Part shown: piece by piece, positions 195-62,953 of the stretch
How positions within the stretch are numbered: the stretch's first letter is position 1
How the letters are laid out: each line of letters opens with the position of its first letter
From: Dokdonia sp.
GTDB lineage: Bacteria; Bacteroidota; Bacteroidia; Flavobacteriales; Flavobacteriaceae
Reading direction: 5' to 3'
NCBI GenBank assembly: GCA_020630915.1
Contig: JAHDIF010000007.1
Location: 62,001 to 126,000, forward strand
DNA length: 64,000 nucleotides
Position numbers and translations under genes: made by a program
The notes under the pieces: model-generated
What the model was told of the DNA's origin: nothing
Database searches by the model: none
What the model saw: only the letters and a program-made list of their open reading frames with translations

Positions 195-208
195 GCTTTC
201 GCGAAAGC
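195..208. repeat. GCTTTCGCGAAAGC palindrome, intergenic copy
   Basis: Exact 14-bp palindrome, extended to 16 bp by flanking C and G. It lies between the adenosyltransferase stop and the promoter of the DUF2795 gene. It is one of 18 exact copies in the window. Confidence 0.95.
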
Positions 209-278
209 GTACCACAAACAACGCATCGCTACTGGTTTACACGTTCTTACATTTATTTTGAAATAATCGTGAATTCAC

Positions 279-308
279 TTGGTTTTTTGCCTAGAAAAAT
301 TATTTTTG
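279..308 (+). promoter_or_regulatory. Bacteroidota-type promoter for the DUF2795 gene
   Basis: TTG at 279-281 is followed after 19 bp by TATTTTTG at 301-308, matching the flavobacterial -33 TTG / -7 TAnnTTTG consensus. The start codon is 24 bp downstream, leaving room for a short leader. Confidence 0.6.
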
Positions 309-331
309 CACAAAATTAAAACACATACGCT

Positions 332-553
332 ATGTACTGGACTTTAGAACTGGCTTCTTACCTGAGTGATGCACCTTGGCCCGCAACAAAGGACGAGTTG
401 ATCGATTATGCGATTAGAACAGGAGCACCTCTTGAAGTAGTAGAAAATCTACAAGCTATTGAAGATGAAGGAGATTCTTACGATTCTATAGAAGAGATCT
501 GGCCAGATTATCCCTCAGACGAGGACTACCTCTGGAACGAAGATGAATATTAA
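332..553 (+). CDS. DUF2795 small acidic protein
   Basis: A 73-residue protein beginning MYWTLELASYLSDAPWPATK and containing ELIDYAIRTGAP, the core of the DUF2795 family common in Bacteroidota. The second half is strongly acidic (EDEGDSYDSIEEI, DYPSDEDY). There is no signal peptide or membrane segment, so it should be cytoplasmic. The family has no assigned function that I can state. It has its own promoter upstream and a terminator directly after it, so it is probably monocistronic. The start is set by the only upstream ATG at a good distance from the promoter. Confidence 0.85.
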   Translation: MYWTLELASYLSDAPWPATKDELIDYAIRTGAPLEVVENLQAIEDEGDSYDSIEEIWPDYPSDEDYLWNEDEY

Positions 554-577
554 CAATATATTACGTCAAAACACATT

Positions 578-606
578 AAAAAGTCTCGCAAAGAGGCTTT
601 TTTTTT
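578..606. terminator. Terminator between the DUF2795 gene and secA
   Basis: The stem AGTCTC/GAGGCT around a GCAAA loop is flanked by an A-run on the left and eight Ts on the right. It can work in both directions but serves the + strand gene here. Confidence 0.75.
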
Positions 607-651
607 GAGTAAATTTGACCACCATTACATTTAGAAAAGACAACCATAATT

Positions 652-3600
652 ATGGGATTATTAGATAACGTATTAAAGATTTTTGTAGGCGATAAGTCTA
701 AGCAAGATGTAGGTGCCATTAAACCTATTGTAGAGCAAATAAAATCACACGAGAAAGCATTAGAGTCACTATCCATAGATGGCTTACGCGAAAAAACAAA
801 CGAGTTTAAACAGCGCATAGCAGCAGATCTGAAAGATATAAACGATCAAAAAGCAGCGCTGCAAACACAAGCAGAAAACGAAGAAGATATTGATAAGCGT
901 GAAGACATCTATGCAGAAATAGATACACTCACAGATCAAGCGTATGAAGTTTCAGAAAAAACATTAGCAGATATACTTCCAGAAGCCTTTGCTGTAGTAA
1001 AAGAAACAGCAAAACGTTTTGTGCACAATACTGAGATCGAAGTTACCGCAACAGAATATGACCGTTTATTAAGTGGAACGAAAGACTACGTAACCTTAGA
1101 TGGTGACAAAGCCATCTGGACAAATAGTTGGGATGCTGCAGGTAAAGAAGTAACGTGGGATATGATACACTATGACGTACAGCTCATAGGAGGTATCGCA
1201 ATGCATCAAGGTAAAATTGCAGAGATGCAAACCGGAGAAGGAAAGACCCTTGTGGCTACACTCCCTGTTTATCTTAATGCCCTAACAGGAAATGGAGTAC
1301 ACCTAGTAACCGTAAATGACTACTTAGCAAAGCGTGATAGCGCTTGGATGGCTCCTATCTTTCAGTTTCACGGGCTTACGGTAGATTGTATAGACTACCA
1401 CAGACCTAATAGTCCAGAACGTCGCGCGGCTTACGCTGCAGATATTACATATGGTACGAATAACGAATTTGGTTTTGACTACCTGCGCGATAATATGTCT
1501 CATAAGCCTGAAGATTTAGTGCAACGCCCGCATAACTATGCCATTGTAGATGAGGTTGATTCTGTACTTGTAGATGACGCTCGTACGCCACTTATTATTT
1601 CTGGCCCAGTGCCTAAAGGAGATGTACACGAGTTTGATGCTCTGAAACCTTCTATTGAGAAGATTGTAGATATACAAAGAGCAGAGCTTGTAAAAACGCT
1701 AGCAGAGGCAAAAAAACTTATCTCTGATGGTGATACTAAAGAAGGTGCAATAAAACTCTTACGCGTGTACAGAGGTCTTCCTAAAAACAAAGCCCTCATT
1801 AAGTATTTGAGTGAAGAAGGAATACGCCAGTTACTTCAGAAGACAGAAAACTTCTATATGCAAGATAACAATCGTGAGATGCCTAAAATAGATGAGGCAT
1901 TATACTTCACCATTGATGAAAAGAATAACCAGATCGAACTTACAGATCGTGGTATTGAATATTTATCTGGAAAAGATGATCCTAACTTCTTTGTGATGCC
2001 AGAGATGGGAATGGAAATTTCCAGAATTGAAGAAAAAGGACTTTCTCCAGAACAAGAAGCGGAAGAAAAAGAAGAACTCTTTAGAGAGTTTTCCGTAAAG
2101 TCTGAGCGTATTCATACGATGAATCAACTCCTTAAAGCCTACACCCTATTTGAAAAAGATACGGAGTATGTGGTGATGGAGAATAAGGTGATGATTGTAG
2201 ATGAGCAAACGGGGCGTATTATGGATGGCCGTCGTTACAGTGATGGATTACACCAAGCGATAGAAGCCAAAGAAAATGTAAAGATTGAAGATGCCACCCA
2301 AACCTTTGCAACAGTAACCCTACAGAATTACTTCCGTATGTACCGTAAATTATCTGGTATGACCGGTACTGCGATTACAGAGGCAGGAGAGCTTTGGGAA
2401 ATCTACAAACTGGATGTGGTAGAAATACCTACCAATAGACCTATAGCACGTCACGATAGAGATGATCTCGTTTACAAAACAAAACGTGAGAAATACAATG
2501 CAGTTATAGACGAAGTAACAAAATTATCTAAAGAAGGGAGACCTGTGCTTATAGGCACCACCTCTGTAGAGATTTCTGAATTACTGGGTAAAATGCTTAC
2601 TATGCGCAAGATCCCGCATAATGTATTAAATGCAAAACTTCATAAAAAAGAGGCAGATATTGTTGCAGAAGCAGGTAATGCAGGAGTAGTAACCATTGCT
2701 ACCAATATGGCTGGTCGTGGTACAGATATTAAACTATCCGACCAAGTAAAAGCTGCAGGCGGTCTTGCTATTATAGGTACAGAGCGTCACGATTCTAGAC
2801 GAGTAGACAGACAGTTAAGAGGTCGCTCGGGTCGTCAGGGAGATCCTGGAAGTTCACAGTTTTATGTATCTCTAGAAGATAACCTGATGCGTTTATTTGG
2901 TTCTGAACGTATTGCGAAGATGATGGACCGTATGGGTCTTAAAGAAGGAGAAGTCATACAACACTCTATGATTTCTAAATCTATAGAGCGTGCTCAGAAA
3001 AAAGTTGAAGAGAATAATTTTGGGGTACGTAAGCGACTTCTTGAGTATGATGACGTGATGAATGCACAGCGTGAAGTAGTTTATAAACGCCGTCGTCACG
3101 CATTGCATGGAGAGAGACTGAGAGTAGACCTTGCTAATATGATTTATGACACCTCAGAGGTAATTGTAGAGGCTAATAAGCAAGCACAGGATTACAAGAA
3201 CTTTGAGTTTGAGTTAATTCGCTATTTCTCTATGCCTAGCCCAGTAGACGAAGGCACTTTTTCAAGTATGGGAGAAAAAGAACTTACTGATAAAGTCTAT
3301 CACGCCGCTTTTGATCATTACAAAGACAAAATGACTCGTAATGCAGATCTGGCTTTCCCTATTATTAAGCGAGTGTATGAAGATCCTGCAAGCAAGTTTG
3401 AGCGCATCGTTGTTCCCTTTTCTGATGGTACAAAAGAGCTTCGAGTTGTGACTAACTTACAGGAAGCATATGAAACGGATGGCAAGCAGTTAGTAAACGA
3501 CTTTGAAAAGAATATCACACTCGCTATTATAGATGATGCTTGGAAAACGCATCTTCGCAAGATGGATGAGCTAAAACAATCTGTACAACTTGCCGTACAC

Positions 3601-4078: not shown

Positions 4079-4894
4079 ATGAAGTATCCTATACAATTAA
4101 TCTGCACAGATATAGACGGCACCCTGCTTAATGCAGAGCGTTGGTTAAGTGAGGATACGGTTACCGCTTTCGCGAAAGCGGGATTACCCACCATCCTAGC
4201 CTCTTCTCGAATGCCTAGTGCATTAACTTACCTGCAAGAAGGTCTCAATATTTTAGGGAGTCCACTCATCGCCTATAATGGAGGTCTTATCATTGGGAAT
4301 AACGGAGCTTTAATCCAGAGTAATACTTTCCATCTAGGCATATTAGAAGTTATAATTGACCACCAAGTACTGCACAAGTATAACCTTAGTATATACTCCA
4401 ATGACGATTGGTTTACTGCAGAAGATGATCAATGGACAAAAAGAGAAAAAAATAACACCCGTGTCCAACCTACCCTGCAAAATGTACAGGACACCCTACG
4501 TAAACTGGCCATCGAAAAAAGAGGCATTCATAAGTTAATGTGTATGGGAGATCCTGCAGCCCTCGATCACCTTGTGGTACTTTTAAAAGTGTATAAAAAT
4601 ACGGTACACCTGTACCGCTCAAAAGACACTTATCTCGAAATCACTCCAAGGGACATAGATAAAGCCAAAGCCCTTAAACTTGTCATAGAAACCGAATATG
4701 ATTTTGGGATGGAATCTGTAATGGCTTTTGGTGATAACCACAATGACGACGAATTGATAAAGCACGCCGGCTTGGGTGTGGCAGTAGGCAATGCAACAGA
4801 AACACTTAAATCACTAGCAGACTATGTGAGTCCTTCTACTAATAAGGAAAATGCTGTCGCAAAAGCAATTAATAAATTTTTAATAACAGATTAG
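4079..4894 (+). CDS. HAD-superfamily hydrolase, Cof type
   Basis: A 271-residue cytosolic phosphatase of the Cof/YidA branch of the HAD superfamily. Motif I is TDIDGTLL near residue 10 and motif IV is GDNHNDDELI near residue 220, with the large C2-type cap between them. Such enzymes dephosphorylate sugar phosphates, nucleotides or FMN; the substrate cannot be read here. I start at the ATG at 4079 (MKYPIQLICTDIDGT) because motif I must lie near the N-terminus; the longer frame from 3980 would overlap secA. An exact palindrome copy at 4166-4179 encodes AFAKA shortly after motif I, in a linker. The 3' end overlaps the convergent M23 gene by 26 bp. Confidence 0.9.
   Translation: MKYPIQLICTDIDGTLLNAERWLSEDTVTAFAKAGLPTILASSRMPSALTYLQEGLNILGSPLIAYNGGLIIGNNGALIQSNTFHLGILEVIIDHQVLHKYNLSIYSNDDWFTAEDDQWTKREKNNTRVQPTLQNVQDTLRKLAIEKRGIHKLMCMGDPAALDHLVVLLKVYKNTVHLYRSKDTYLEITPRDIDKAKALKLVIETEYDFGMESVMAFGDNHNDDELIKHAGLGVAVGNATETLKSLADYVSPSTNKENAVAKAINKFLITD
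4166..4179. repeat. GCTTTCGCGAAAGC palindrome inside the HAD gene
   Basis: Exact copy read in the AFAKA frame (TVTAFAKAGLP). Confidence 0.95.
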
Positions 4895-8677: not shown

Positions 8678-9719
8678 AAAAGTATCACATATAAAAGGGA
8701 TTAATCCCGCTTTCGCGAAAGCAAACTCAAAACCAAAGAAGCCCTCTTTGGATATTCCTGATCTGGCTGACGCCATTGTTTATGGAAACCACACGGCCTT
8801 ATCTCAAGGCATTACTTTGGTAGAAAGCACTTCTCCCAAACATCAAGAAAGGGCACAACAACTTATTGAAAAATGCCTACCAAAAGCCAATAAGTCTATT
8901 CGTGTTGGGATAACGGGTGTTCCTGGTGTTGGAAAAAGCACTTTTATTGAAGCCTTAGGCTCCTACCTAACAGAAAAAGAAAAAAAAGTTGCTGTACTTG
9001 CGGTAGATCCTTCAAGTTCTATTTCTAAGGGAAGTATTTTAGGAGACAAAACTCGTATGGATATGCTATCTCAAAATCCTCGTGCATTTATTAGACCTAG
9101 CGCTTCTGGAGATTCTTTAGGTGGCGTTGCACGTAAAACCCGAGAGGCTATTATTTTGTGTGAGGCGGCTGGTTTTGATACAATTATTATAGAAACCGTG
9201 GGCGTAGGACAGAGCGAAACGATTGTTCATTCTATGGTAGATTTCTTTTTACTCTTAAAACTAGCAGGTGCTGGCGATGAACTTCAAGGCATCAAACGTG
9301 GTATCATTGAAATGGCAGACGCCATTGTAATTAATAAAGCAGATGGGACTAACGAAAAGCCTGCAAGGTTAGCAAAGGCGGCTTTTGCAAAGGCACTACA
9401 CTTATATCCCCCTAAAAATAGTGGCTGGTCACCTAAAGTCACTACCTGTAGCGCTCTAGAAAAAAAAGGGATAACAGAAATATGGGATCTTATCTCTCAA
9501 TATATAAAGGTAGCCAAAGAGGAAAGCTATTTTGAAAAAAAACGACTGGATCAAAATAAATACTGGCTACTACAAACTATTGAAAATAGTTTAAAAGATA
9601 ATTTTTATCAAAACCCAGAAGTGATGCGTCAATTTCCTCAAATCATAGCCTTAATTAGTGAACATAAAATTTCTCCATTTGAAGGGGCTCAAAAGTTATT
9701 AGACATTAGCCATAAATAG
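8670..9719 (+). CDS. meaB: MeaB/ArgK-family GTPase, methylmalonyl-CoA mutase chaperone
   Basis: 349 residues of the G3E GTPase family. The P-loop is GVPGVGKST near residue 80, followed by AVDPSSSISKGSILGDKTRM (switch region), ETVGVGQSE and the base-specificity motif NKADG. MeaB protects and reloads adenosylcobalamin in methylmalonyl-CoA mutase. No mutase gene is in the window. The start is TTG at 8670: no in-frame ATG lies upstream in the open frame (stop at 8601) and the next Met is inside the conserved domain. The first 14 residues include AFAKAN, encoded by a palindrome copy at 8709. A second, decayed copy gives AAFAKALH at about 9380. The 3' end overlaps the convergent PAP2 gene by 14 bp. 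Confidence 0.92.
   Translation: MNKKVSHIKGINPAFAKANSKPKKPSLDIPDLADAIVYGNHTALSQGITLVESTSPKHQERAQQLIEKCLPKANKSIRVGITGVPGVGKSTFIEALGSYLTEKEKKVAVLAVDPSSSISKGSILGDKTRMDMLSQNPRAFIRPSASGDSLGGVARKTREAIILCEAAGFDTIIIETVGVGQSETIVHSMVDFFLLLKLAGAGDELQGIKRGIIEMADAIVINKADGTNEKPARLAKAAFAKALHLYPPKNSGWSPKVTTCSALEKKGITEIWDLISQYIKVAKEESYFEKKRLDQNKYWLLQTIENSLKDNFYQNPEVMRQFPQIIALISEHKISPFEGAQKLLDISHK
8709..8722. repeat. GCTTTCGCGAAAGC palindrome in the meaB N-terminus
   Basis: Exact copy read in the AFAKA frame (NPAFAKANSK). Confidence 0.95.
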
Positions 9720-11115: not shown

Positions 11116-12454
11116 TAATTAGTTTTTTGGAAAGATAATTAAATCTAAAGTACAATAGTATGGCAGACACTGTAAGCCCAACTAATAACCCTACCCAAAT
11201 CCCTTGACTGCCCATTTGATCCTCCCTGCCTAAATACCACATCACGGGAAAGCCCACAACCCAGTAGGCTATAAAACAGATCACCGTAGGAATATTTACA
11301 TCTTGCAAACCTCTTAATGCCCCCAAAATAGTAACCTGCACACCATCACTTAACTGAAATAACGCGGCAACGATTAATAATTGTGACGCAAGAAAAATAA
11401 CTTCCGGGTTATCTATATAAAAGGGAGGTAAAAAATCTTTTAGCAGAATAAAACCAACCGCAAAAACGGCTTCAATTAGGAAAACTTGAAGAAATATAGA
11501 GAATGCAATACGTCGCAAATTAGGAAAATCACTCTTTCCTTTTTGGTTACCAACACGTATGGTTGCAGTGACTCCTAATCCCACAGCAATCATAAATGTC
11601 ATGGATGCCAGGTTGAGTGCTATCTGGTTAGCCGCTTGCGCATTGGTACCCAGAATTCCAGATAAAAAGATAGCGGCAGTAAATACAGCTACTTCAAAGA
11701 GCATTTGTAGTGCTGTAGGAAAACCCAATCGTATTAATTCTTTAAATTCCGACCATTGGATATGCTGCATATTCCCTATATAAAAATAGGGTTTAAACTT
11801 TTGCTTTCGCGAAAGCAAAAACACCAACAATCCCAACATAAAAAATCTAGAAATTAAGGTTCCCCAAGCTGCACCCTCTACTTCTAATCTCGGGAAAACC
11901 CATATACCATAAATAAGGAAATAGTTAAAAATTACATTTACAACATTTGCGGTAAGCGTTGCATACATAGCAAAACGGGTCTGTGATAATCCATCTGCAA
12001 ACTGCTTAAAAGCTTGAAATATCATAAGCGGAATCATAGAAAACGCCACAATCTCCAGATAAGGTATGGCTAGTTTCACTACCTCTTCAGGCTGATCTAA
12101 CATACCTAATACTGGCTTTGCCACCAATAAAGCTAGAAATAATAGTACGCCATTTACAGCACACATAACCACTCCGTGATGAAAATGAAGTCTTCCCTTT
12201 TCGATATTACCAGCTCCATCTGCCTCTGCCACTAAGGGTGTTATTGCAAAAGAAAATCCAATTCCAATAGAAAGCGCTATAAATACTAGACTATTACCTA
12301 AACTTACTGCAGCAAGCTGAGCTGGACCCAATTGTCCTACCATCAAATTATCTGCTAGAGCCACAAGAATATGACCTAACTGCCCAAGCATTATTGGGTA
12401 TGCTATAGATAAATTTGTATTGAATTCTGAAGTAAACTTTCTTAGTTGTAGCAT
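11108..12454 (-). CDS. MATE-family efflux transporter (NorM-like)
   Basis: 448 residues with about twelve membrane helices in two MatE halves; the first begins AYPIMLGQLGHILVALADNL and contains MVGQLGPAQLAAVSLGNS, typical of NorM-like proteins. These export cationic drugs or metabolites in exchange for Na+ or H+. A palindrome copy at 11803-11816 is read in the LSRK frame (LLSRKQKFKP) in a cytoplasmic loop between helices, a tolerant site. It is the first gene of a leftward run with the lipoprotein, the small protein and PAP2. Confidence 0.93.
   Translation of the reverse strand: MLQLRKFTSEFNTNLSIAYPIMLGQLGHILVALADNLMVGQLGPAQLAAVSLGNSLVFIALSIGIGFSFAITPLVAEADGAGNIEKGRLHFHHGVVMCAVNGVLLFLALLVAKPVLGMLDQPEEVVKLAIPYLEIVAFSMIPLMIFQAFKQFADGLSQTRFAMYATLTANVVNVIFNYFLIYGIWVFPRLEVEGAAWGTLISRFFMLGLLVFLLSRKQKFKPYFYIGNMQHIQWSEFKELIRLGFPTALQMLFEVAVFTAAIFLSGILGTNAQAANQIALNLASMTFMIAVGLGVTATIRVGNQKGKSDFPNLRRIAFSIFLQVFLIEAVFAVGFILLKDFLPPFYIDNPEVIFLASQLLIVAALFQLSDGVQVTILGALRGLQDVNIPTVICFIAYWVVGFPVMWYLGREDQMGSQGIWVGLLVGLTVSAILLYFRFNYLSKKLINE
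11803..11816. repeat. GCTTTCGCGAAAGC palindrome inside the MATE gene
   Basis: Exact copy read in the LSRK frame, in a loop between helices. Confidence 0.95.
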
Positions 12455-13401: not shown

Positions 13402-14826
13402 TTAATCTCGAATTGAAGTCGTCATTTTTATACCTGGCTTCTGAATGTAATTATCCATTAGGTAGATAAGGCTTGTCATTGTTGCAGCCCCTAATTCAAG
13501 CTCTCTTTTATTTACTGCATCAAAGGTATCGTTAGCCGCATGATGATGATCAAAATAACGTTGAGAGTCTGGTCGCAAACCTGCTAAAACAATCCCCTTA
13601 TTACCTTCTTTGAGAGGTCCAATATCTGCTCCACTACCTCCTTTTTCGAAATAATGAATAAGATAAGGTTCAAAGAGAGGTTTCCAACTGAGCACCTCAT
13701 CAAAATTACGATCATCACTATCAAAAGAAAAACCACGTGGTGTAAAACCTCCTGCGTCGCTCTCTAAAGCAAAAACGTGTCTTTCATTATTCTTTTTAGC
13801 TTCGGCCGCATATTTTCTTCCTCCTCGTAATCCATTCTCTTCATTCATAAAAAGTACTACCCGAATACTATGTTTAGGTTTATAACCCACTGCTTTCATT
13901 AGCCTGAGTACTTCCATACTCTGTACAACACCTGCCCCATCATCATGGGATCCATCACCGAGATCCCAAGAATCTAAGTGACCTCCTACAACCATATACT
14001 TATTAGGATACTCACGACCTGTTATTTCTCCAATAACATTAAAAGATTCTACATCTGGTAAATTCCTGCATGACATACTGTAATAGAACTTCGTATCAGG
14101 ATTAAGCTTTAATAAGGTGCTCAATAATTCTGCTCCTTTTGTACTTATTGCTGCGGCTGGGATATGTTGCGCCCTTGGTAAATCACCGTAAGACATTGAG
14201 CCGGTGTGTGGATAATCATCTATACTATGCGTTACAGATCGAACGATTACGCCAGCTGCTCCAAGCTTTGCTGCCTCTGCTGCTCCACTGTAACGCTGGT
14301 CAACACAACCACCGTAAGCCCTAAAGGTTTCAATAAGTTCATCCTGCATAGGCCTGTTGTAAAAGACCACTTTCCCCGCAACTTTATCCTTTCCCAAAGC
14401 TTTAAGCTCTTCAATACCCTTTACTTCTATCACACTTGCTTTTAAACCATTAGGAGGAGTAGCTATAGAACCCCCTAAGGCACAGATAGGGACTTGGGTT
14501 GTTTCTCCCAATCCTGTTTCTATATATGCATATTCAGTTGCTCCGCGTATCCACTTTGGAACCATTACAGGTTGTAACCATACTTTATCAAGACCTATCG
14601 AATCTAATTGCGACTTCGTCCATTCTACAGCAAGTTCTGCTCCTAGACTACCACTCAATCTAGATCCTATTTGATTAGACAAATAATCTAGCCATTGATA
14701 GCTATTCCCATTTGTTAAGGCCTCATTATAAATTTGTTTGATTTGAATGGAATCTTTTTGCGCTTTCGCGAAAGCAGAAATCAAACAAATACATATAATC
14801 ACAGCTATTCTTCTCAGGTTATTCAT
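13402..14826 (-). CDS. M28-family secreted peptidase (carboxypeptidase Q-like)
   Basis: 474 residues: signal peptide, PA-type domain, and an M28 zinc peptidase domain with GGHLDSWDLGDGSHDDGAGV (metal His and Asp) and FMNEENGLRGG (catalytic and metal Glu). Such enzymes remove amino acids from peptides outside the cytoplasm. I start at 14826 (MNNLRRIAVIICI) because this ATG overlaps the PPK2 stop in the arrangement ATGAATAA and opens a normal signal peptide; the longer frame adds 16 charged residues. A palindrome copy at 14762 encodes the cleavage region SAFAKAQ. Confidence 0.92.
   Translation of the reverse strand: MNNLRRIAVIICICLISAFAKAQKDSIQIKQIYNEALTNGNSYQWLDYLSNQIGSRLSGSLGAELAVEWTKSQLDSIGLDKVWLQPVMVPKWIRGATEYAYIETGLGETTQVPICALGGSIATPPNGLKASVIEVKGIEELKALGKDKVAGKVVFYNRPMQDELIETFRAYGGCVDQRYSGAAEAAKLGAAGVIVRSVTHSIDDYPHTGSMSYGDLPRAQHIPAAAISTKGAELLSTLLKLNPDTKFYYSMSCRNLPDVESFNVIGEITGREYPNKYMVVGGHLDSWDLGDGSHDDGAGVVQSMEVLRLMKAVGYKPKHSIRVVLFMNEENGLRGGRKYAAEAKKNNERHVFALESDAGGFTPRGFSFDSDDRNFDEVLSWKPLFEPYLIHYFEKGGSGADIGPLKEGNKGIVLAGLRPDSQRYFDHHHAANDTFDAVNKRELELGAATMTSLIYLMDNYIQKPGIKMTTSIRD
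14762..14775. repeat. GCTTTCGCGAAAGC palindrome encoding a signal-peptidase site
   Basis: Exact copy in the AFAKA frame; Ala-Lys-Ala followed by Gln is the predicted cleavage site of the M28 peptidase. Confidence 0.9.
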
Positions 14827-16923: not shown

Positions 16924-16970
16924 ACCTGCCTGCCTGCAGACAGGTCTCCAGATCTCGCTTTCGCGAAAGC
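16924..16970. repeat. Composite repeat: CCTGCCTG/CAGACAGG inverted repeat plus GCTTTCGCGAAAGC
   Basis: An imperfect 22-bp inverted repeat at 16924-16945 is followed 11 bp later by an exact palindrome at 16957-16970. It lies between the MscS gene and the response-regulator start. A related composite occurs at 45850-45880. Confidence 0.85.
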
Positions 16971-35049: not shown

Positions 35050-35107
35050 TTTAAAAAATCATCATTGAAATGTTTTCAAATTTTCGCGAAAGCATACTTT
35101 TAAAAAC

Positions 35108-41986: not shown

Positions 41987-42428
41987 AGAAGATGTAATAC
42001 AAACCAGACAGTTACCACTTTCGCGAAAGCTATCTATCAACCTTCTCCTCACTGCGAGTTGGGCAACAGATCTTTTGCACGAAACACTCAAACCGTATGA
42101 GGTTTCATTACAGCAGTTCAACGTATTACGTATATTGCGCGGGCAGCAAGGAAAACCTGCAAATTTATCTACCATTAATGAACGAATGGTTACTAAAATG
42201 AGTAATACAACCAGACTCATTGATAAATTGCTTTCAAAAGAATATGTAGATAGAACCATATGCCCCACAAATAGAAGAAAAATAGAAATTACCATTACTC
42301 AAAAAGGTCTAGACATATTAAAAAAAATAGACCCTAAAATCACACAGGCTGAAGAAAAAATTACAGCTAATCTAGATACAAACAAACTCGAATTACTCAA
42401 TACTCTGCTCAATACTTTACGACAATAA
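41979..42428 (+). CDS. MarR-family transcriptional regulator
   Basis: 149 residues with the MarR winged helix: LSTINERMVTKMSNTTRLID, KLLSKEYVDRTICPTNRRKI (recognition helix and wing) and EITITQKGLDILKKID. MarR dimers bind palindromic operators and let go when bound by small ligands. The yceI-type gene follows at 18 bp, so this gene probably controls a two-gene operon, including itself. LPLSRKLS near the N-terminus is encoded by a decayed palindrome (ACTTTCGCGAAAGC, 42017-42030). It is divergent from the TlpA-like gene, with 165 bp between. Confidence 0.92.
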   Translation: MTIEDVIQTRQLPLSRKLSINLLLTASWATDLLHETLKPYEVSLQQFNVLRILRGQQGKPANLSTINERMVTKMSNTTRLIDKLLSKEYVDRTICPTNRRKIEITITQKGLDILKKIDPKITQAEEKITANLDTNKLELLNTLLNTLRQ

Positions 42429-43234: not shown

Positions 43235-44632
43235 ATGAATTACAAATTAATAACACATCATACCAAGCTACTGGCAGATACGATTACTCCAGTTTCTGTG
43301 TACCTGAGACTACGGGATCGCTTCCCTAATAGTCTCCTTCTGGAGAGTAGTGATTACCACGCAAATGATAATAGCTTTAGCTATATATGCTGCAACCCTA
43401 TTGCATCTATTAAGATAGAAAACGAACATATTATTCAGCAATTTCCGGATGGCACACAGTCTGAACAAACCATAGAGAAAGACACGAATGTGGTGGGTGT
43501 TTTGGACGCTTTCGCGAAAGCGTTCTCATCCCAAACCTCTTCTTTTAAGTTTATAAACAATGGCCTTTTTGGGTATATGTCGTATGACGCTGTGCGGTAT
43601 TTTGAAGATCTTACACTTTCTAAAAAAGAAGGAGACCTTAAAGTTCCAGACGCTTACTACGCTGTTTATCAAAATGTAATTGCTATCAATCATTTTAATA
43701 ATGAAGCCTATGTTTTTTGCCATAGCCTTGATGGAAATGATAATACCACACAAATAGCAGATGTAATTAGAACAAAATCATTTGCTCAATACGACTTTAC
43801 TCGTAAAGATGATGTCAGCACCAATATTTCTGATTCAGATTTCAAAAAACTTGTAGAAACATGCAAAGCACACTGCCAGAGAGGTGATGTTTTTCAAATA
43901 GTACCTAGCAAACGATTCTCTCAAAAATTCACAGGAGATGAATTTAATGTATACCGTGCATTGCGCAGTGTCAATCCATCTCCTTACCTGTTCTACTTTG
44001 ACTACGGAGATTTTAAAATTTTTGGAAGTTCTCCAGAAGCACAAATCATTGTTCAAGATGGACAAGCAGAGATTCATCCAATTGCTGGAACTTTTAAACG
44101 TACAGGTAACGATGAGCAAGATGCGCTTCTAGCCAAAGAACTCGCCGCAGATGAAAAAGAAAACAGCGAGCACGTAATGCTTGTAGATCTAGCTCGTAAT
44201 GACTTATCCCGTAATGGACATAATGTAGTTGTAGATACCTACAGAGAAGTACAGTTCTTCTCTCACGTAATACATCTTGTAAGCAAGGTCACTGGAAAAT
44301 TAAATGTAGGAAGCAATACCCTGCAAGTAGTGGCAGATACCTTTCCAGCTGGAACATTAAGCGGTGCTCCCAAGCATATGGCAATGCAGCTGCTTGAAAA
44401 ATATGAAAACGTAAATCGTGATTTCTATGGAGGCGCCATCGGATTTATGGATTTTAAAGGAAACTTTAATCACGCGATTATCATCCGTAGCTTTTTGAGT
44501 AAGAATCACAGCTTACACTATCAAGCAGGTGCCGGTATCGTAGCAAGCAGCAGCCCTGAAAACGAATTACAAGAAGTGTATAATAAACTAGGCGCCCTCA
44601 CAAAAGCGTTACAACTAGCAGAAGCCTTATAA
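43235..44632 (+). CDS. trpE: Anthranilate synthase component I
   Basis: 465 residues of the chorismate-binding family; it makes anthranilate from chorismate with ammonia supplied by TrpG. SLLLESSD near residue 30 is the feedback (Trp-binding) motif LLES, and the catalytic half has FQIVPSKRF, GSSPE, HPIAGT, DLARNDLSR and TFPAGTLSGAPKHMAMQLL. DAFAKAFSSQ near residue 93 is encoded by the palindrome at 43508, between the N-terminal and chorismate-binding parts. First structural gene of the operon; trpG follows after 2 bp. Confidence 0.98.
   Translation: MNYKLITHHTKLLADTITPVSVYLRLRDRFPNSLLLESSDYHANDNSFSYICCNPIASIKIENEHIIQQFPDGTQSEQTIEKDTNVVGVLDAFAKAFSSQTSSFKFINNGLFGYMSYDAVRYFEDLTLSKKEGDLKVPDAYYAVYQNVIAINHFNNEAYVFCHSLDGNDNTTQIADVIRTKSFAQYDFTRKDDVSTNISDSDFKKLVETCKAHCQRGDVFQIVPSKRFSQKFTGDEFNVYRALRSVNPSPYLFYFDYGDFKIFGSSPEAQIIVQDGQAEIHPIAGTFKRTGNDEQDALLAKELAADEKENSEHVMLVDLARNDLSRNGHNVVVDTYREVQFFSHVIHLVSKVTGKLNVGSNTLQVVADTFPAGTLSGAPKHMAMQLLEKYENVNRDFYGGAIGFMDFKGNFNHAIIIRSFLSKNHSLHYQAGAGIVASSSPENELQEVYNKLGALTKALQLAEAL
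43508..43521. repeat. GCTTTCGCGAAAGC palindrome inside trpE
   Basis: Exact copy in the AFAKA frame (LDAFAKAFSS). Confidence 0.95.
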
Positions 44633-46977: not shown

Positions 46978-47757
46978 ATGGCAATACTAGAAAGAATCAT
47001 AAAGGATAAGCATAAGGAAGTCATCTTACGCAAATGCCTCATTCCTGCAAGTCAGTTGGAACAATCGGTGCTATTTGAGAGAAAAACAGCCTCACTTGCT
47101 ACGGCTATAAAAGAAGGCTCAGGCATTATTGCCGAACATAAACGACGTTCTCCCAGCAAGTCTGTTATTAATAATAGCTTGAGTGTACAGGATGTTGCAA
47201 ACGGTTACGAAAATGCTGGCGCAAGCGGAATGTCTGTACTTACCGATGGAAAATATTTTGGAGGTTCTTTAGATGATTTACTATTGGCACGAGCATCTGC
47301 AAGCTTTCCTTTATTACGCAAAGAATTTATTGTAGATGAGTATCAGATTTTAGAAGCCAAAGCCTATGGCGCAGATGCCATATTATTGATTGCTGCTACG
47401 CTTTCGCGAAAGCAAATACAGCAATTTTCAACCTTTGCAAAAAGCTTAGGACTTGATGTCCTATGTGAATCCCATAATGAGCAAGAATTACAAAATTCTA
47501 TTATGCCTTCTGTCGATATGTTAGGGATTAATAATCGCAACCTAAAGACTTTTGAGGTAAGCCTAGAAACCAGCAAAACACTCATCAAACAGATTCCCGA
47601 TGAGTTTGTAAAAGTTTCTGAAAGTGGCATCTCTTCTGTAGCAGCTATTAAAGAATTGAAGCCTCACGGATTTCAGGGTTTTTTAATAGGTGAGAACTTT
47701 ATGAAAACCGATAATCCTGGAAAAAGTGCTAGGGAGTTTATAGAACAGTTAAAATAA
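46978..47757 (+). CDS. trpC: Indole-3-glycerol phosphate synthase
   Basis: 259 residues from MAILERIIKDKHKEVILRK, a TIM barrel with EHKRRSPSKS, SVLTDGKYFGGSL, LLRKEFIVDEYQI, GINNRNLKTFEV and KVSESGISS. It closes CdRP to indole-3-glycerol phosphate. The frame extends 12 codons upstream (MDEISAFAEIKR) through the palindrome, but the ATG at 46978 is the family start. The palindrome at 47400 encodes LSRKQ in a helix. Not fused to trpF. Confidence 0.97.
   Translation: MAILERIIKDKHKEVILRKCLIPASQLEQSVLFERKTASLATAIKEGSGIIAEHKRRSPSKSVINNSLSVQDVANGYENAGASGMSVLTDGKYFGGSLDDLLLARASASFPLLRKEFIVDEYQILEAKAYGADAILLIAATLSRKQIQQFSTFAKSLGLDVLCESHNEQELQNSIMPSVDMLGINNRNLKTFEVSLETSKTLIKQIPDEFVKVSESGISSVAAIKELKPHGFQGFLIGENFMKTDNPGKSAREFIEQLK
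47400..47413. repeat. GCTTTCGCGAAAGC palindrome inside trpC
   Basis: Exact copy in the LSRK frame (AATLSRKQIQ). Confidence 0.95.
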
Positions 47758-49666: not shown

Positions 49667-49680
49667 GCTTTCGCGAAAGC
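49667..49680. repeat. GCTTTCGCGAAAGC palindrome between trpB and trpA
   Basis: Exact copy filling the 26-bp gap; it ends 6 bp before the trpA start, where a ribosome-binding region would lie. Confidence 0.95.
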
Positions 49681-51539: not shown

Positions 51540-52540
51540 TATATCAGATTGTTATCTTTAATACACGCTTCAATGGCCTTACCAAAAACCTCTTGCAAGG
51601 TCATTCTAGCCGCTTTTATCTGTCTAGGGATAATACTTTCTGTAGACAACCCAGGATTGGTATTTACTTCTACAAAATGTGGGATTCCTTCGTGAAAGAT
51701 AAAATCTACTCTGCAAATCCCCTTTAAATTAAGTTTATCGTATACTACCGCTGTAAGATCCTGTACTGCCTTTGTATCACTCTCAGACAAACGTGCAGGC
51801 ACAATTTCTTCCGACTTCCCAGAATACTTGGCCTCTAGATCAAAAAAGTCTCCATCTGGAACAATCTCACAAACGGGTAACACAACCGTCTCTGCACCAA
51901 AGTTAAAAACCCCTACTGACACTTCAGTTCCCGAGAGGAAGGACTCTATTAAAATTTCGTGATCTTCCGTAAACGCTTTATCGAGAGCATCTTTGAGTGC
52001 ACTTTCTTCATACACTTTACTCACGCCGTAGCTGGAGCCGGAACGATTGGGCTTTACAAATACGGGATAGTCAATATTGCTTTTTTCTAGTTCCGATTTC
52101 GCGAAAGCGTACACATCTTCATCTTTTTTATGTAGATAAACAGAAGATGCCATCGGAATATTATAGGATCGCAACACACTCAAAGTATCTCTTTTATTAA
52201 AAGTAAGGGCGCTCTCATAAAAATCACAACTGGTTTGCGGGATGCCTATCGCTTTAAGATATGCTTGCATCTCACCATCCTCTCCTGGAGAGCCGTGTAT
52301 GGTATTGTAACAGGCATCAAAAAATACTTGCCCAAAAGGTAGCATTGCACTAAAATCCCTTTTATTGATGTGAAACTCTTCTCCTTCATACATACACACC
52401 CATCTATCCTTTAAAATATGTACGGCATAAGCTTCATAGGCATCCTTATCTAATGCATTTAGAACGGTTTGCCCGCTATTTATAGAGATTTCTACCTCGC
52501 TACTATAGCCACCCATTAAAACAGCAATATTTTTTTGCAT
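51539..52540 (-). CDS. ddl: D-alanine--D-alanine ligase
   Basis: 333 residues from MQKNIAVLMGGYSSEVEISI: ATP-grasp ligase with VEISINSG (substrate-binding serine), HGSPGEDGEMQAYLKAIGIP, VKPNRSGSSYGVSKV, CRVDFIFHEG and EVNTNPGLS. It makes the D-Ala-D-Ala dipeptide for peptidoglycan. I start at 52540; the upstream 11 codons are not family-like. A decayed palindrome (GATTTCGCGAAAGC, 52095-52108) encodes AFAKSE. The last codons belong to the 39-bp repeat. ddl seems intact. Confidence 0.95.
   Translation of the reverse strand: MQKNIAVLMGGYSSEVEISINSGQTVLNALDKDAYEAYAVHILKDRWVCMYEGEEFHINKRDFSAMLPFGQVFFDACYNTIHGSPGEDGEMQAYLKAIGIPQTSCDFYESALTFNKRDTLSVLRSYNIPMASSVYLHKKDEDVYAFAKSELEKSNIDYPVFVKPNRSGSSYGVSKVYEESALKDALDKAFTEDHEILIESFLSGTEVSVGVFNFGAETVVLPVCEIVPDGDFFDLEAKYSGKSEEIVPARLSESDTKAVQDLTAVVYDKLNLKGICRVDFIFHEGIPHFVEVNTNPGLSTESIIPRQIKAARMTLQEVFGKAIEACIKDNNLI
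51567..51605. repeat. 39-bp direct repeat of the ddl 3' end, right copy
   Basis: Copy within intact ddl, encoding MTLQEVFGKAIEA; identical to 51011-51049. Confidence 0.95.
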
Positions 52541-54356: not shown

Positions 54357-55121
54357 ATGAAAATTGTTGTTTCTCCGGCCAAATCACTCAACTTTGAAAC
54401 ACCTCTTCCTACAGAGAAATTCACACAACCTACTTTTTTAGAAGAAGCGTCAAAATTAAATGGTGCGCTTTCGCGAAAATCAAAGAAAGCCATAGGAGAG
54501 TTAATGCACATTAGTGATGCACTAGCAACGCTCAATAAAGAACGCACACAACAGTTTAGCACCCCGTTTACAGCAACAAATGCTCGTCCTGCGGTATATA
54601 CCTTTGATGGAGATGTCTATCAAGGACTAGATGTTTTTACACTCCCAGAAGAGCAAATAGATCAATTGCAAGACTCCTTACGTATTCTATCAGGTATGTA
54701 TGGCGTATTGAAACCATTAGACCTTATGCAAGCATACCGCTTAGAAATGGGTACAAAGCTTAAGGTAGGACGCGCAGACAACCTTTATAAATTTTGGGGA
54801 GATATAATAACCAAAAAACTCAATGAAGAATTAAAAGAGGACGAGCTATTTATCAATCTAGCCAGTAATGAATATTTTAAGGTGGTCAATACTAAACTTC
54901 TAAAAGTACCCGTGATTACACCCATTTTTAAAGACTTTAAAAATGGCAAACTCAAAGTAATCTCTTTCTTTGCTAAGAAAGCCCGAGGTAGAATGATGCG
55001 TTATATCCTAGACACAAACGCTCAGACAGTTTCAGACCTATTAGGCTTTGATTATGATGACTACAGATATAGTGAAGAGCATTCTAATCCAGAGAAGAAG
55101 GAGTATACTTTTGTTAGGTAA
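54357..55121 (+). CDS. yaaA: YaaA-family peroxide stress protein
   Basis: 254 residues starting [20 protein letters not shown], with YNGDVYxG-type [35 protein letters not shown] and [13 protein letters not shown], the family blocks. YaaA limits free iron and protects DNA during hydrogen peroxide stress in E. coli. ALSRKSKKA near residue 38 is encoded by a decayed palindrome (GCTTTCGCGAAAAT, 54467-54480). Confidence 0.93.
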
Positions 55122-55887: not shown

Positions 55888-55894
55888 ACTCAGC

Positions 55895-56779: not shown

Positions 56780-58534
56780 ATGAAAAAGCTATTGACTCTT
56801 GCCATAACACTACTCATACTATCCTGTGGAGATACTGTAGACAATCCAGAAAACAAGGATTTCAAAACGCTTTTTGAAACTAGTAATGGCACCCAAACAC
56901 CTACCTACGAGGAGGTGATTTCCTTTTATAAAGAACTAGACGAAGCCTATGTTTCTATTAAAACCTACGAGGTAGGCACCACAGATGCCGGCAAACCACT
57001 TACTCTTATCACTTTTAACCCCAACAGAACCTTTGATAGTGAGTTTTCCAATAATCAAGAGGTACGACGCATCCTTATTAATAACGGTATTCATCCAGGC
57101 GAATCAGACGGTATAGACGCCACCATGATGCTTATGCGCGACCTAGCGATGGGTGTCATAGAGGCTCCAGAAAAAACTTGGATAGGCGCCATAGCCGTAT
57201 ATAACATAGGCGGCGCATTAAATCGAAATAGCACTTCTAGAACCAATCAAAACGGTCCCTCAGCATATGGCTTTAGAGGTAATGCCCGCAACTACGATCT
57301 CAATAGAGATTTTATAAAAAACGATACTAAAAACAGTGAAGCCTTCACGGAGATTTTTCATCTTGTAAGACCCGATGTTTTTATAGATAACCACGTAAGC
57401 AACGGCGCAGATTATCAATACACGCTCACCCATCTCTTTACACAACACAACAAACTCAGTGGTGTTTTAGGCGAGTTTCTACACAATGATTTCCAGCCGG
57501 CTCTGGAGAAAAATCTAAAGGAAAAAGATTGGGACATCACGCCCTATGTAAATGTTTTTAATCGCACACCAGAGCAAGGATTTAGTCAGTTTTATGATCA
57601 TCCTAGATACTCTACGGGGTATACCGCACTATGGAACACAATTGGTTTAATGGTAGAAACCCATATGCTCAAACCCTACAAACCTCGGGTAGAGGGCACC
57701 TATGAACTTATGAAAAGTGCTATTGAAGTAACAGAACAAGAAGGCGAAAAGATCAAGCTATTGAGGAAGAATGCTTTTAACGCTTTCGCGAAAGCGGACA
57801 CCTACCCCATCGCATTTTCTATAGACAGCACTAAAACCACAACACTTGATTTTTTAGGGTATGAAGGAGAAATGACGCCTAGTGAAGTAACAGGAAAACA
57901 ACGCTTAAGATACAATCGAGACAAACCTTTTAATAAAGAAGTCACCTACTACAATCATTTTAAACCTACTAAAGAAGTAACCCTTCCCAAGGCCTACGTA
58001 ATCCCAAGAGGGTACCGAAACATCGCTCTCAAACTAAGGGATAATGAAATACGATTCGATCAGCTTAAAAGGGATACCACATTTATGGCAGAGGTATATC
58101 ATATAGAAGATTATAAGACTTCCCGCAATCCATACGAAGGGCACTACCCCCATTATGGAACCTCTGTAAAGCGATCTCAGGAAGAGGTAACTGTACTAAA
58201 AGGAGGATACATTATTCCCTTAGAAGATAATGAAGAAGGACTACGTTATTTACTAGAAACTCTAGAACCAGAAGCTAATGACAGTTTCTTTAATTGGAAC
58301 TATTTTGATACGATCTTACAGCAAAAAGAAGGGTTCTCGCCCTACGTCTGGGAAGACAAAGCTGCCGCATTATTAAAAGAAAACCCTGAATTGAGAGCTT
58401 CTTTTGAGTCTAAAAAACAAGAAGATCCTGCATTTGCTCAAAACTGGTATAGCCAACTAGCTTGGATTCATAAACAATCACCTAACTATGAGAAAGCACA
58501 TTTACGCTACCCCATCTTTAGGATGCTTCGTTAG
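56780..58534 (+). CDS. M14-family zinc carboxypeptidase lipoprotein
   Basis: 584 residues from MKKLLTLAITLLILSCGDTV, a lipoprotein signal with lipobox LSCG (Cys16). The zinc ligands are in NNGIHPGESDGIDATMML (HxxE) and FIDNHVSNGADYQ (second His). The rest is a large C-terminal part unique to Bacteroidota M14 proteins. It should cleave C-terminal residues of peptides at the cell surface. A palindrome at 57782 encodes NAFAKADTYP after the catalytic domain. The 3' end overlaps the convergent NUDIX gene by 33 bp. Confidence 0.88.
   Translation: MKKLLTLAITLLILSCGDTVDNPENKDFKTLFETSNGTQTPTYEEVISFYKELDEAYVSIKTYEVGTTDAGKPLTLITFNPNRTFDSEFSNNQEVRRILINNGIHPGESDGIDATMMLMRDLAMGVIEAPEKTWIGAIAVYNIGGALNRNSTSRTNQNGPSAYGFRGNARNYDLNRDFIKNDTKNSEAFTEIFHLVRPDVFIDNHVSNGADYQYTLTHLFTQHNKLSGVLGEFLHNDFQPALEKNLKEKDWDITPYVNVFNRTPEQGFSQFYDHPRYSTGYTALWNTIGLMVETHMLKPYKPRVEGTYELMKSAIEVTEQEGEKIKLLRKNAFNAFAKADTYPIAFSIDSTKTTTLDFLGYEGEMTPSEVTGKQRLRYNRDKPFNKEVTYYNHFKPTKEVTLPKAYVIPRGYRNIALKLRDNEIRFDQLKRDTTFMAEVYHIEDYKTSRNPYEGHYPHYGTSVKRSQEEVTVLKGGYIIPLEDNEEGLRYLLETLEPEANDSFFNWNYFDTILQQKEGFSPYVWEDKAAALLKENPELRASFESKKQEDPAFAQNWYSQLAWIHKQSPNYEKAHLRYPIFRMLR
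57782..57795. repeat. GCTTTCGCGAAAGC palindrome in the M14 gene
   Basis: Exact copy in the AFAKA frame (NAFAKADTYP). Confidence 0.95.
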
Positions 58535-59132: not shown

Positions 59133-59771
59133 ATGATTTTAGACAAAGAAACGGCAAAAAAAACTGCCGAACTGTTATTGCAAATTAATGCAATTAAATT
59201 ACAACCACAAGAACCTTTTACGTGGGCTTCTGGCTGGAAATCTCCAATTTATTGCGATAACCGTATCACCTTGTCTTACCCACAGATTCGCAACTACATC
59301 CATCAAGAAATGGCCAAGCAAGTAGAGCTTATCTATGGAAAGCCTGATGCCATTGCTGGGGTTGCTACTGGTGCAATAGGCATTGGAATGCTTGTGGCAG
59401 ACTATCTCAACCTTCCTTTTGTGTACATACGCCCCGAGCCAAAAAAGCACGGTCGTCAGAACAAAATAGAAGGACATCTAGAATCTGGCAGCAATGTTGT
59501 AGTGATAGAAGATCTAATTAGTACAGGAATGAGCAGTCTTAAAGCTGTTACAGCTTTAGAAGAAGCGGGAGCTAATGTAAAAGGAATGCTCGCTATCTTC
59601 ACCTACGGTTTTGAGAAGAGTGTAACCGCTTTCGCGAAAGCAAAAACAGAACTCCACACATTAAGTGATTACAGCCACCTATTAGAACAAGCTGCAGACA
59701 CAAATTACATTACATCAAAAGAAATAGCTACGTTAGAAGACTGGCGTAAAGACCCTGCAAACTGGGGATAA
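59133..59771 (+). CDS. pyrE: Orotate phosphoribosyltransferase
   Basis: 212 residues with the PRPP-binding loop VVIEDLISTGMSSLKAV and the N-terminal GWKSPIYCDNR. It makes OMP from orotate and PRPP in pyrimidine synthesis. A palindrome at 59628 encodes TAFAKAKT in the C-terminal half. The SRPBCC gene follows after 19 bp. The start ATG is preceded by a TAnnTTTG box ending 4 bp away. Confidence 0.96.
   Translation: MILDKETAKKTAELLLQINAIKLQPQEPFTWASGWKSPIYCDNRITLSYPQIRNYIHQEMAKQVELIYGKPDAIAGVATGAIGIGMLVADYLNLPFVYIRPEPKKHGRQNKIEGHLESGSNVVVIEDLISTGMSSLKAVTALEEAGANVKGMLAIFTYGFEKSVTAFAKAKTELHTLSDYSHLLEQAADTNYITSKEIATLEDWRKDPANWG
59628..59641. repeat. GCTTTCGCGAAAGC palindrome inside pyrE
   Basis: Exact copy in the AFAKA frame (VTAFAKAKTE). 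Confidence 0.95.
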
Positions 59772-62176: not shown

Positions 62177-62208
62177 GAACACTTATTTTACGTTTTAATA
62201 GTATAATG

Positions 62209-62241
62209 AAAGGCAGACTCTAACAATCTGCCTTTATTTTT
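62209..62241 (+). terminator. Terminator after the transketolase genes
   Basis: AAAGGCAGA (62209-62217) and TCTGCCTTT (62227-62235) form a 9-bp stem followed by ATTTTT. Confidence 0.88.
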
Positions 62242-62242
62242 G
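62235..62242 (+). promoter_or_regulatory. -7 box (TATTTTTG) before the outer-membrane gene
   Basis: Matches TAnnTTTG and overlaps the T-run of the preceding terminator, 24 bp before the start at 62267. No clear -33 TTG is present. Confidence 0.4.
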
Positions 62243-62266
62243 TCAATACTTAAAACAATCTCAATT

Positions 62267-62887
62267 ATGAAAAAAGTAATGATCCTGTTACTCTTGATAA
62301 CAGCTACAACAACAGCATTTGGACAAAGTGCAAAATTTGGTATTAAAGGGGGATTAAATTTTGGGGCTACTGGTGATATTACCACTATTGATAACCAAAA
62401 TTTCAGTGGTGATAACAAACTTGGTTATCATGTTGGCCTTTTGACTCAATTTAAATTCTCTGGTATTTTCTTACAGCCCGAAGTACTATACACGCAACTC
62501 ACCACAGAGTATGGAAGCAATAGTGGCGCAGATGCAGATTACACCCTTTCTAAATTAGATATACCTGTTTTACTTGGGTTTGATATTCTAGGTCCGCTTA
62601 ACATTAAAGCGGGACCAGCTTTTCAATATGTGTTAAATAACGAATTAGATGTTAATGATTTTACAACAGAAGATCCTGAAAACTCATTCACAATTGGTTA
62701 TCAAGTAGGTGCGGGAGTGCAACTTGGAAAACTAGGAATAGACTTGAGATATGAAGGTGCTTTTGCAGAAAATGACACAAGTATAATCACCCAAGACATT
62801 TCTAATACGGCTTCAGAGATATTTACAATAGATTCGAGGCCTACGCAATGGATCTTAAGTATCTCTTACATGTTTGGAGATAATTAG
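62267..62887 (+). CDS. Outer-membrane beta-barrel (PorT/OmpX-like) protein
   Basis: 206 residues from MKKVMILLLLITATTTAFGQ, a cleavable signal, followed by alternating hydrophobic strands (KFGIKGGLNFGATGD, LGYHVGLLTQFKFSGIFLQP, FTIGYQVGAGVQLGKLGIDL) and a C-terminal strand ISYMFGDN with the final aromatic. It is an eight-stranded barrel by pattern; function unknown. A terminator follows. Confidence 0.85.
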   Translation: MKKVMILLLLITATTTAFGQSAKFGIKGGLNFGATGDITTIDNQNFSGDNKLGYHVGLLTQFKFSGIFLQPEVLYTQLTTEYGSNSGADADYTLSKLDIPVLLGFDILGPLNIKAGPAFQYVLNNELDVNDFTTEDPENSFTIGYQVGAGVQLGKLGIDLRYEGAFAENDTSIITQDISNTASEIFTIDSRPTQWILSISYMFGDN

Positions 62888-62902
62888 AAAGAGTACCTTA
62901 TA

Positions 62903-62930
62903 AAAAAGCAGCCCAAAAGGCTGCTTTTTT
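62903..62930. terminator. Terminator after the outer-membrane gene
   Basis: AAAGCAGCC/GGCTGCTTT stem with A-run and T-run on either side; can act in both directions. Confidence 0.92.
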
Positions 62931-62939
62931 ATGTTTCAC

Positions 62940-62953
62940 GCTTTCGCGAAAGC
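62940..62953. repeat. GCTTTCGCGAAAGC palindrome, intergenic copy
   Basis: Exact copy with flanking C and G, between the terminator and the FKBP gene stop. Confidence 0.95.

Follow-up and report, generated by a model that had tools for sequence, protein, structure and literature searches.

What holds a short sequence in hundreds of exact copies throughout a genome is an old puzzle, and the closest described cases are the uptake sequences of Neisseria and the Pasteurellaceae and the highly iterated palindrome 1 (HIP1) of cyanobacteria. In the accessible text of two studies the uptake sequences of both groups are biased to the core genome, highly conserved and relatively evenly placed, and those of the Pasteurellaceae arise by point mutation (PMC2397512, PMC7811141); the surroundings of the DNA uptake sequence (DUS) are reported there as permissive and more divergent (PMC2397512), and the published uptake sequences come from the Pasteurellaceae and Neisseriaceae (PMC7811141). 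The pasteurellacean sequence is quoted as having 438 exact and 947 one-mismatch copies, 86 of the latter expected by chance, and HIP1 as having 5,648 exact and 1,830 one-mismatch copies with 160 expected; in the accessible part of its source HIP1 is described as still unexplained (PMC4390886). Here we describe a 14-nt palindrome, GCTTTCGCGAAAGC, in 64,000 nt of DNA from Dokdonia sp. (GCA_020630915.1, contig JAHDIF010000007.1, positions 62,001-126,000), the whole of which we refer to as the window. The motif offers a clean and testable case of this puzzle, and looks like an address label read by some protein, perhaps to recognise the cell's own DNA.

The 14-mer was not found in the accessible full-text literature, where papers containing its core, TTTCGCGAAA, have unrelated titles. 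At the level of titles and listings no report of the motif turned up in the literature on Dokdonia, flavobacterial uptake sequences or highly iterated palindromes, and the words methyl, motif and palindrome are absent from the accessible text of the Dokdonia donghaensis genome note.

Abundance of the palindrome

The original prediction, made from the sequence alone, had placed 18 exact copies of GCTTTCGCGAAAGC in the window, and every coordinate proved right; 100 dinucleotide shuffles gave none. Its chance rate of about 10−4 per window agrees with a first-order expectation of 0.0014 per 584 kb, or about 1.5e-4 per 64 kb, and the copies are indeed single and not in arrays, with a mean gap of 3,691 bp in the window, a coefficient of variation (CV) of 0.51 and none of the 17 gaps shorter than 1 kb. 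The excess is found genome-wide, the count on which the prediction was to stand or fall: an exact search of the source genome (2.97 Mb in 18 contigs) gave 685 copies, and the reversed control none. Dokdonia sequence totalling 584 kb contains 173 exact copies, against an average of zero over 200 draws of shuffled same-half palindromes, and in all four motif-rich sets GCTTTCGCGAAAGC is at least 17 times as common as any other 14-nt palindrome. Copies with a single mismatch are few, 13 against 173 exact copies in the 584 kb, 3 against 10 in genome G014 of Dokdonia, and 2 against 17 and 4 against 15 in the genera g26 and g206, respectively.

The proposed core, TTTCGCGAAA, is intact in near copies, but it is too short, since 173 of the 194 occurrences of TTTCGCGAAA in the 584 kb belong to the full 14-mer. 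G stands on both outer sides in 127 of the 173 full 14-mers, and of the 237 occurrences of the inner TCGCGA 195 lie within TTCGCGAA, so that 42 remain, against about 45 expected in all. Four further near copies with an intact TTTCGCGAAA core lie in the window and were absent from the prediction (35080, 42017, 52095 and 54467). All copies in the window are as follows, with no strand assigned; ORF stands for open reading frame, AFAKA, LSRK and FRES are the reading frames used, and labels marked "by eye" were assigned by inspection of the ORF only.

195..208, exact copy
4166..4179, exact copy, frame AFAKA, in a HAD-family hydrolase ORF
8709..8722, exact copy near the start of a MeaB-like GTPase ORF, possibly preceding the true start
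11803..11816, exact copy, frame LSRK, in a MATE-like ORF (by eye); common to 2 of 3 congeners, also to G017 and G003
14762..14775, exact copy, frame AFAKA, near the start of a peptidase-like ORF (by eye); common to G017 and G003
16957..16970, exact copy between listed ORFs
19388..19401, exact copy, frame AFAKA, in an ABC transporter ATPase ORF; common to G017 and G003
23617..23630, exact copy, frame FRES, in an NAD-dependent epimerase ORF
25302..25315, exact copy between listed ORFs; aligned copy in G017 and G003 when unmasked, unmapped when masked
28567..28580, exact copy, frame AFAKA, in a 753-aa ORF
31398..31411, exact copy, frame AFAKA, in a 446-aa ORF
35080..35093, degenerate copy, two mismatches at one outer edge, within an 8.3-kb gap between exact copies
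39735..39748, exact copy, frame AFAKA, in a 473-aa ORF; common to 3 of 3 congeners compared
42017..42030, degenerate copy, one mismatch at the outer edge
43508..43521, exact copy, frame AFAKA, in a trpE-like ORF (by eye); common to 3 of 3 congeners compared, also to G222
47400..47413, exact copy, frame LSRK, in a trpC-like ORF (by eye); common to 2 of 3 congeners compared, also to G222
49667..49680, exact copy between two listed ORFs
52095..52108, degenerate copy, one mismatch at the second base, within an 8.1-kb gap between exact copies
54467..54480, degenerate copy, two mismatches at one outer edge, in the same 8.1-kb gap as 52095
57782..57795, exact copy, frame AFAKA, in a 598-aa peptidase-like ORF (by eye); common to 3 of 3 congeners compared
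59628..59641, exact copy, frame AFAKA, in an ORF with a phosphoribosyltransferase domain; G017 and G003 have no copy at the aligned position
62940..62953, exact copy between listed ORFs

The two longest gaps in the window hold degenerate copies, one in the first (35080, in 31398-39735) and two in the second (52095 and 54467, in 49667-57782), as if the spacing had once been more even.

Anatomy of the site

The conserved unit is larger than the 14-mer, consisting of a ragged 22-bp palindrome with G-poor 3' flanks that reach to about 25 nt on both strands, and these extended flanks are a feature that the original prediction had missed. The flanks mirror each other about the centre: among 250 half-sites from genome G017 the bases just outside are G (88%), then T (58%), A (74%) and A (64%), and the 3' side is depleted of G to about 25 nt. 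The proportion of G at flank positions 4-25, compared with that at 61-160, is 0.086 against 0.185 in the window, 0.078 against 0.186 in G017, 0.093 against 0.180 in G006 and 0.075 against 0.191 in g26; the bias is weaker in g206 (0.188 against 0.230), and ten sites in G014 have a flank G of 0.123. At the second outside base T is preferred in G017, and G or A in g26. Strong identity ends just outside the palindrome, with nothing shared past about 22 bp.

A hairpin, cruciform or RNA structure as the object of selection is suggested by the 22-nt form, which folds as a 9-bp hairpin (−7.3 kcal/mol, z −2.4), but the 14-mer alone folds no better than shuffled sequences (z −0.2), copies lie in all three reading frames as well as between genes, and the two flanks of a site pair with each other no better than flanks taken from different sites (complementarity 0.293 versus 0.310 at positions 5-25 of 143 sites). 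The flank bias thus belongs to each half-site, as it would for a protein dimer and not for a hairpin. This comparison within and between sites speaks against hairpin or cruciform selection, and we regard structure as a highly improbable explanation.

Placement and spacing

Placement was determined with a simple ORF caller over the 584 kb, of which 92.1% is called coding. Ninety-four of the 173 sites lie inside ORFs, in all three frames (54 AFAKA, 22 LSRK and 18 FRES), and the other 79 lie between ORFs, in just 7.9% of the DNA, so that there is an excess between genes.

Copies are about 4 kb apart and fairly evenly spaced. Each of twenty 20-kb stretches of G017 contains three to nine copies (variance/mean 0.33, P 0.003), and the first 99 gaps in this genome have a CV of 0.74 (P 0.0009 versus random), with four gaps shorter than 1 kb where about 23 are expected; the two longest of these gaps adjoin and contain ORFs of 4,431 and 5,060 aa (L346 and L347; G017 285-325 kb). 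In eight other stretches, including ones from g26 and g206, the gap CV is 0.38-0.75, the g206 stretch having just seven sites. No copy-poor arm was seen in the twenty G017 stretches, which are spread over a genome whose origin and terminus were not placed, and a macrodomain or division site was rejected on this evidence. A nucleoid-protein target or segregation signal more broadly, also among the roles originally proposed, may still apply.

Spacing of this order is also near that of E. coli Chi, and a Chi-like signal would spare the cell's own DNA from an end-degrading nuclease and promote recombination, with a palindrome acting in both directions. The even distribution agrees with such a role, and phages bearing copies would escape the nuclease; against this, the Chi sequences known to us are 5-8 nt long, mostly G-rich and oriented, and an exact 14-bp palindrome with 25-nt flanks is far longer. 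We consider this explanation very unlikely.

Density ranges from 133 to 274 copies per Mb in 13 genomes. Among the 13 congeners at least 93% complete (G001, G002, G005, G007 and G013 were dropped beforehand) density drops with genome size (rho −0.70, p 0.008, kinship not corrected), while copy number shows no significant rise (rho 0.40, p 0.18), as if newly acquired DNA came without sites.

Distribution among genomes

A set of 39 genomes including the source showed 369-905 copies in all 17 congeners, and none in six other members of the family or in 15 of the order. The motif occurs at least once in 80 of 397 family genomes, and six of these have more than 400 copies, namely two of Dokdonia, three of g26 (578, 664 and 609) and one of g206 (408); none of the remaining 391 has more than 19, the next highest counts being 19, 17 and 16. 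Across the phylum (395 genomes) none except the source has more than six copies, and among 80 named loci encoding a relative of one window protein the motif is present in five of the six titled Dokdonia and in none of the 74 others. The genome, congener and family counts bear out the description of a genome-wide, HIP1-like iterated palindrome with a different core. In a SecA tree Dokdonia forms one clade (100/100) with g206 as its moderately supported sister (88/83), and g26 is a long branch by itself, its position relative to Dokdonia not being fixed.

Three further genomes, G108 and G318 of genus g92 (16 and 19 copies) and G083 of g67 (17 copies), are above chance and far below the motif-rich genera. 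In g26 (G273 and G425) the second commonest palindromic 14-mer, GCTTTTGCAAAAGC, has three copies and is a symmetric double variant of the motif.

In other genera the few copies present often lie close together, and in six genomes (G044, G110, G119, G133, G246 and G368) the clusters lie on related DNA, in pieces 70-97% alike; a pair of copies 933 bp apart recurs in G110, G119, G133 and G246, and also in G192. Annotated plasmids matching 7.5 kb of this DNA identify RND efflux permeases and multicopper oxidases. This motif-bearing efflux and multicopper-oxidase island is seen at L085-L091 and L094-L099, in genomes with at most eight copies in all, and seems to be a metal-resistance island that moved out of motif-rich donors. 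The motif may mark DNA from such donors in other genera.

Copies also occur on IMG/VR contigs with phage genes, at one to three per locus and some inside phage ORFs, among the matches listed. The phage-type contigs are:

L215, L236, L164, L182, L181, L204, L242, L172 and L176, phage-type contigs with motif copies (IMG/VR, among the matches listed)

The families giving hits on motif-bearing contigs are portal, head, tape measure, integrase, transposase or primase. Most of the exact IMG/VR matches listed look like chance, flank G over the 120 loci being 0.226 against 0.258 further out. Because the G-poor phage examples were selected by sorting on G-poorness, only contigs with several copies count as evidence, and one 27-kb contig carries four (L242, L172 and L176). 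Phage P12024S (L339) has no copy with two or fewer mismatches in positions 1-35,000, and its host may or may not be a motif-rich strain.

Evolution of the copies

Copies are strongly held in place. Genomes G006 and G008 are 89-90% identical; over 200 kb of each, G008 has 41 of the 43 G006 sites that could be mapped, and G006 has 41 of the 44 from G008 (52 G006 sites in the 200 kb; 9 and 8 sites unmapped, respectively). Between G017 and G003 all 17 mapped sites are shared in one direction and 17 of 18 in the other. In unmasked alignments, 11 of 12 aligned window sites are common to G017 and 12 of 13 to G003. An exact 14-mer could itself seed an alignment, and the comparison was therefore redone with the motif masked, which left six of seven mapped sites conserved in G017 and six of eight in G003 (one more being displaced by 7 bp), with 11 and 10 of the 18 unmapped; as G017 and G003 are 95% alike these are not independent comparisons. 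Congeners at a greater distance keep the site in 13 of 15 coding comparisons. Sixty sites, each from one genome of a pair and covered in full by the alignment, carry two substitutions among their 840 core bases, between genomes that differ by 8.5%; change is slightly slower at flank positions 1-10 (73 changes in 1,199) and ordinary further out.

Copies arise by substitution: six of the six mapped alleles without a site align without gaps and four of the six are one base off, only mapped alleles being judged; a separate comparison added more gapless examples. The self-spreading element offered as one possible role is thereby contradicted, as strong identity also stops just outside the palindrome. 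A self-inserting element, or one like the repetitive extragenic palindromic (REP) sequences, was rejected on the same grounds, there being no insertions or deletions at these alleles and no sequence shared beyond about 22 bp.

Sharing falls away between genera. Two of five coding places are common to g206 (one of the five looks like a paralogue) and none of nine to g26. In a wider test coding sharing runs from 4/7 to 6/7 within Dokdonia and is 11/16 and 11/13 within g26; between the two it is 0/20 with Dokdonia as query and 0/9 in reverse, in comparisons that share genes and are not independent. Between-gene sharing is low within Dokdonia (3/7, 3/6, 2/3, 0/2, 0/1, 2/5, 2/4 and 1/3) and is 1/12 and 2/6 in the same two directions between Dokdonia and g26, where one shared intergenic place is possible. 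In a MATE-like gene of g26 (L303, genome G425) 12 of 14 bases match at the place of the window site 11803, a hint of a coding position common to both lineages. Either the same word was mostly built up separately in Dokdonia and g26, or nearly every old position has turned over. With a second genus carrying its own set of the same word, the reader protein could be sought through gene trees.

Candidate readers

These features ask for a trans-acting reader with 14-bp specificity, and the reader protein was not found among the candidates considered in the 14 motif-rich genomes. One of the roles originally proposed was that of a methyltransferase target; in a HIP1-like version of it, repair guided by methylation would produce and preserve the sites. 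The palindrome is highly iterated and has a CGCG centre, and in the accessible text on cyanobacteria HIP1 and the alternative HIPs track methyltransferases, at a quoted 1,000-2,000 per Mb against the 133-274 seen here (PMC4390886). The two methylase classes searched are patchy: PF00145 (C5) is present in 6 of the 14 genomes and has no match in 8, and PF01555 (N6_N4) is above the cut-off in 2 and below it or absent in 12, with sub-threshold stretches in two more. In G008 a single open frame of 700 aa (C1:2994546-2996633) contains two matches to the C5 methylase domain. The conserved unit is at least 14 bp and TCGCGA is not raised outside it; we know of no methylase target of 14 contiguous bp. 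For the two classes searched the proposal is not supported, and we regard it as very unlikely. A ParB/Noc paralogue as reader is likewise not supported, with no extra ParB-family protein in 13 of the 14 genomes, each of which has a single ParB_N protein, and two in G011.

Self-recognition or chromosome organisation

Our tentative first choice is that the motif may be a self-recognition sequence held by biased DNA uptake or recombination, like the uptake sequences of Neisseria and Haemophilus but symmetric and without a pilus machine. Each copy would be the centre of a symmetric recognition site made up of 14 fixed bp, a preferred G followed by T or G, A and A, and a 3' flank poor in G. Dokdonia, g206 and the more distant g26 would all possess the trans-acting protein that reads this site in double-stranded DNA. 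The job of this protein would be to single out the cell's own DNA when it enters or recombines during natural transformation; fragments with the site would be preferred and incoming intact copies would overwrite mutated ones, so that the site would accumulate in shared core DNA at about one per fragment-sized interval. We infer here one reader protein, an uptake function, and drive over direct selection.

This choice is ranked first because it agrees with published uptake sequences (in origin by point mutation, high conservation and relatively even placement), with pilus-free transformation in Riemerella and with the presence of ComEC in all 26 genomes searched. The exactness and strong maintenance of the copies, their excess between genes and the drop in density with genome size also count in its favour. 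According to the accessible text of two studies, Riemerella, of the same family, transforms without detected pilus homologues, for which a novel outer-membrane machinery is proposed, and R. columbina prefers its own DNA, although short-word counts there return just A/T-rich words (PMC8459023, PMC7965970). Should the motif prove to be an uptake signal, self-preference in Bacteroidota that lack a pilus would be accounted for. The fuller proposal, of a Bacteroidota signal for uptake or recombination that is symmetric, served by a machine other than the type IV pilus, and established separately in Dokdonia with g206 and in g26 at mostly different positions, most simply by transfer of the reader gene, is possible but somewhat doubtful.

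Several observations weigh against an uptake signal. Known uptake sequences are read by type IV pilus systems and are, to our knowledge, asymmetric, as is the one uptake sequence spelled out in the literature we consulted. Just 5 of 14 motif-rich genomes, and 2 of 12 that are motif-poor, have a T2SSE-type ATPase above the cut-off; its lack in 9 of the 14 would argue against uptake in proteobacteria, although the Riemerella precedent differs. ComEC does not separate the two groups, being present in the 12 motif-poor genomes as well, and the comEC neighbours, a peptide transporter and a DPP IV peptidase with no receptor found there, are not the Riemerella outer-membrane pair, which was not searched for in these genomes. 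The literature search gave no transformation result for Dokdonia, and in the accessible text F. johnsoniae did not transform, competence not being general in the family (PMC7965970). DNA 51-300 bp from sites is not more divergent (0.074-0.079 versus 0.085 overall), intergenic sites are shared less between congeners than coding ones (0/1 to 2/3 per pair), and exactness is above that quoted for the pasteurellacean uptake sequence and HIP1. Nor would the reading strongly predict the several copy-bearing phage contigs among the IMG/VR matches listed.

The close rival, ranked second, is an abundant dimeric chromosome-organising or global DNA-binding protein, a real possibility that we hold less readily. 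The site would then be an operator that pins or loops the chromosome about once per 4 kb, with purifying selection keeping each copy. A perfect palindrome with symmetric outer preferences fits a dimer, even spacing with few gaps under 1 kb fits loops, the same flank bias is present in both lineages, phage contigs carry copies, and the core is very strongly constrained in surroundings that are not unusually divergent; the palindrome and its ordinary surroundings fit such a protein better than they fit uptake. On the other side stand the three to nine copies in every G017 stretch with no copy-poor arm, the lack of an extra ParB-family protein in all but one of the motif-rich genomes, and the lower density in larger genomes. 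Nucleoid and division sites known to us number only tens per genome, and if the motif is a nucleoid site it is far more numerous than these. Separate build-up in g26 and the fall in density in larger genomes fit an uptake signal better, and self-recognition remains our first, tentative, choice.

Comparison with known systems

As we understand REP sequences and bacterial interspersed mosaic elements (BIMEs), they too form hundreds of short palindromes, but the Dokdonia motif shows no sign of insertion and no identity past about 22 bp, and 94 of 173 copies are inside ORFs. Noc sites and parS, whose consensus we take to be a palindrome of 14-16 bp with TTTC/GAAA arms, are alike in form; the arms of the Dokdonia motif are two bp closer, its copies number hundreds, and 13 of 14 motif-rich genomes have a single ParB_N protein. 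The spacing of about 4 kb resembles that of E. coli Chi, quoted as 1,008 in 4.64 Mb, and the Dokdonia motif is longer and symmetric. HIP1 and the alternative HIPs are likewise highly iterated, lineage-specific palindromes of unexplained function, and differ in having a unit of 8 bp as opposed to 14-22 bp, a higher density, a different phylum, and in the lack here of a universal methylase of the two classes tested.

From DUS and the uptake signal sequence (USS) the motif differs in being palindromic and longer, with far fewer one-mismatch copies, in its spacing of about 4 kb as opposed to the 1 kb or so given for DUS/USS in the accessible text (PMC7811141), in surroundings that are not more divergent, and in the lack of the pilus ATPase from most motif-rich genomes. 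It resembles them in its hundreds of copies far above chance, its restriction to particular lineages, its origin by substitution, its conservation in place, its relatively even spacing and its weaker flank preferences.

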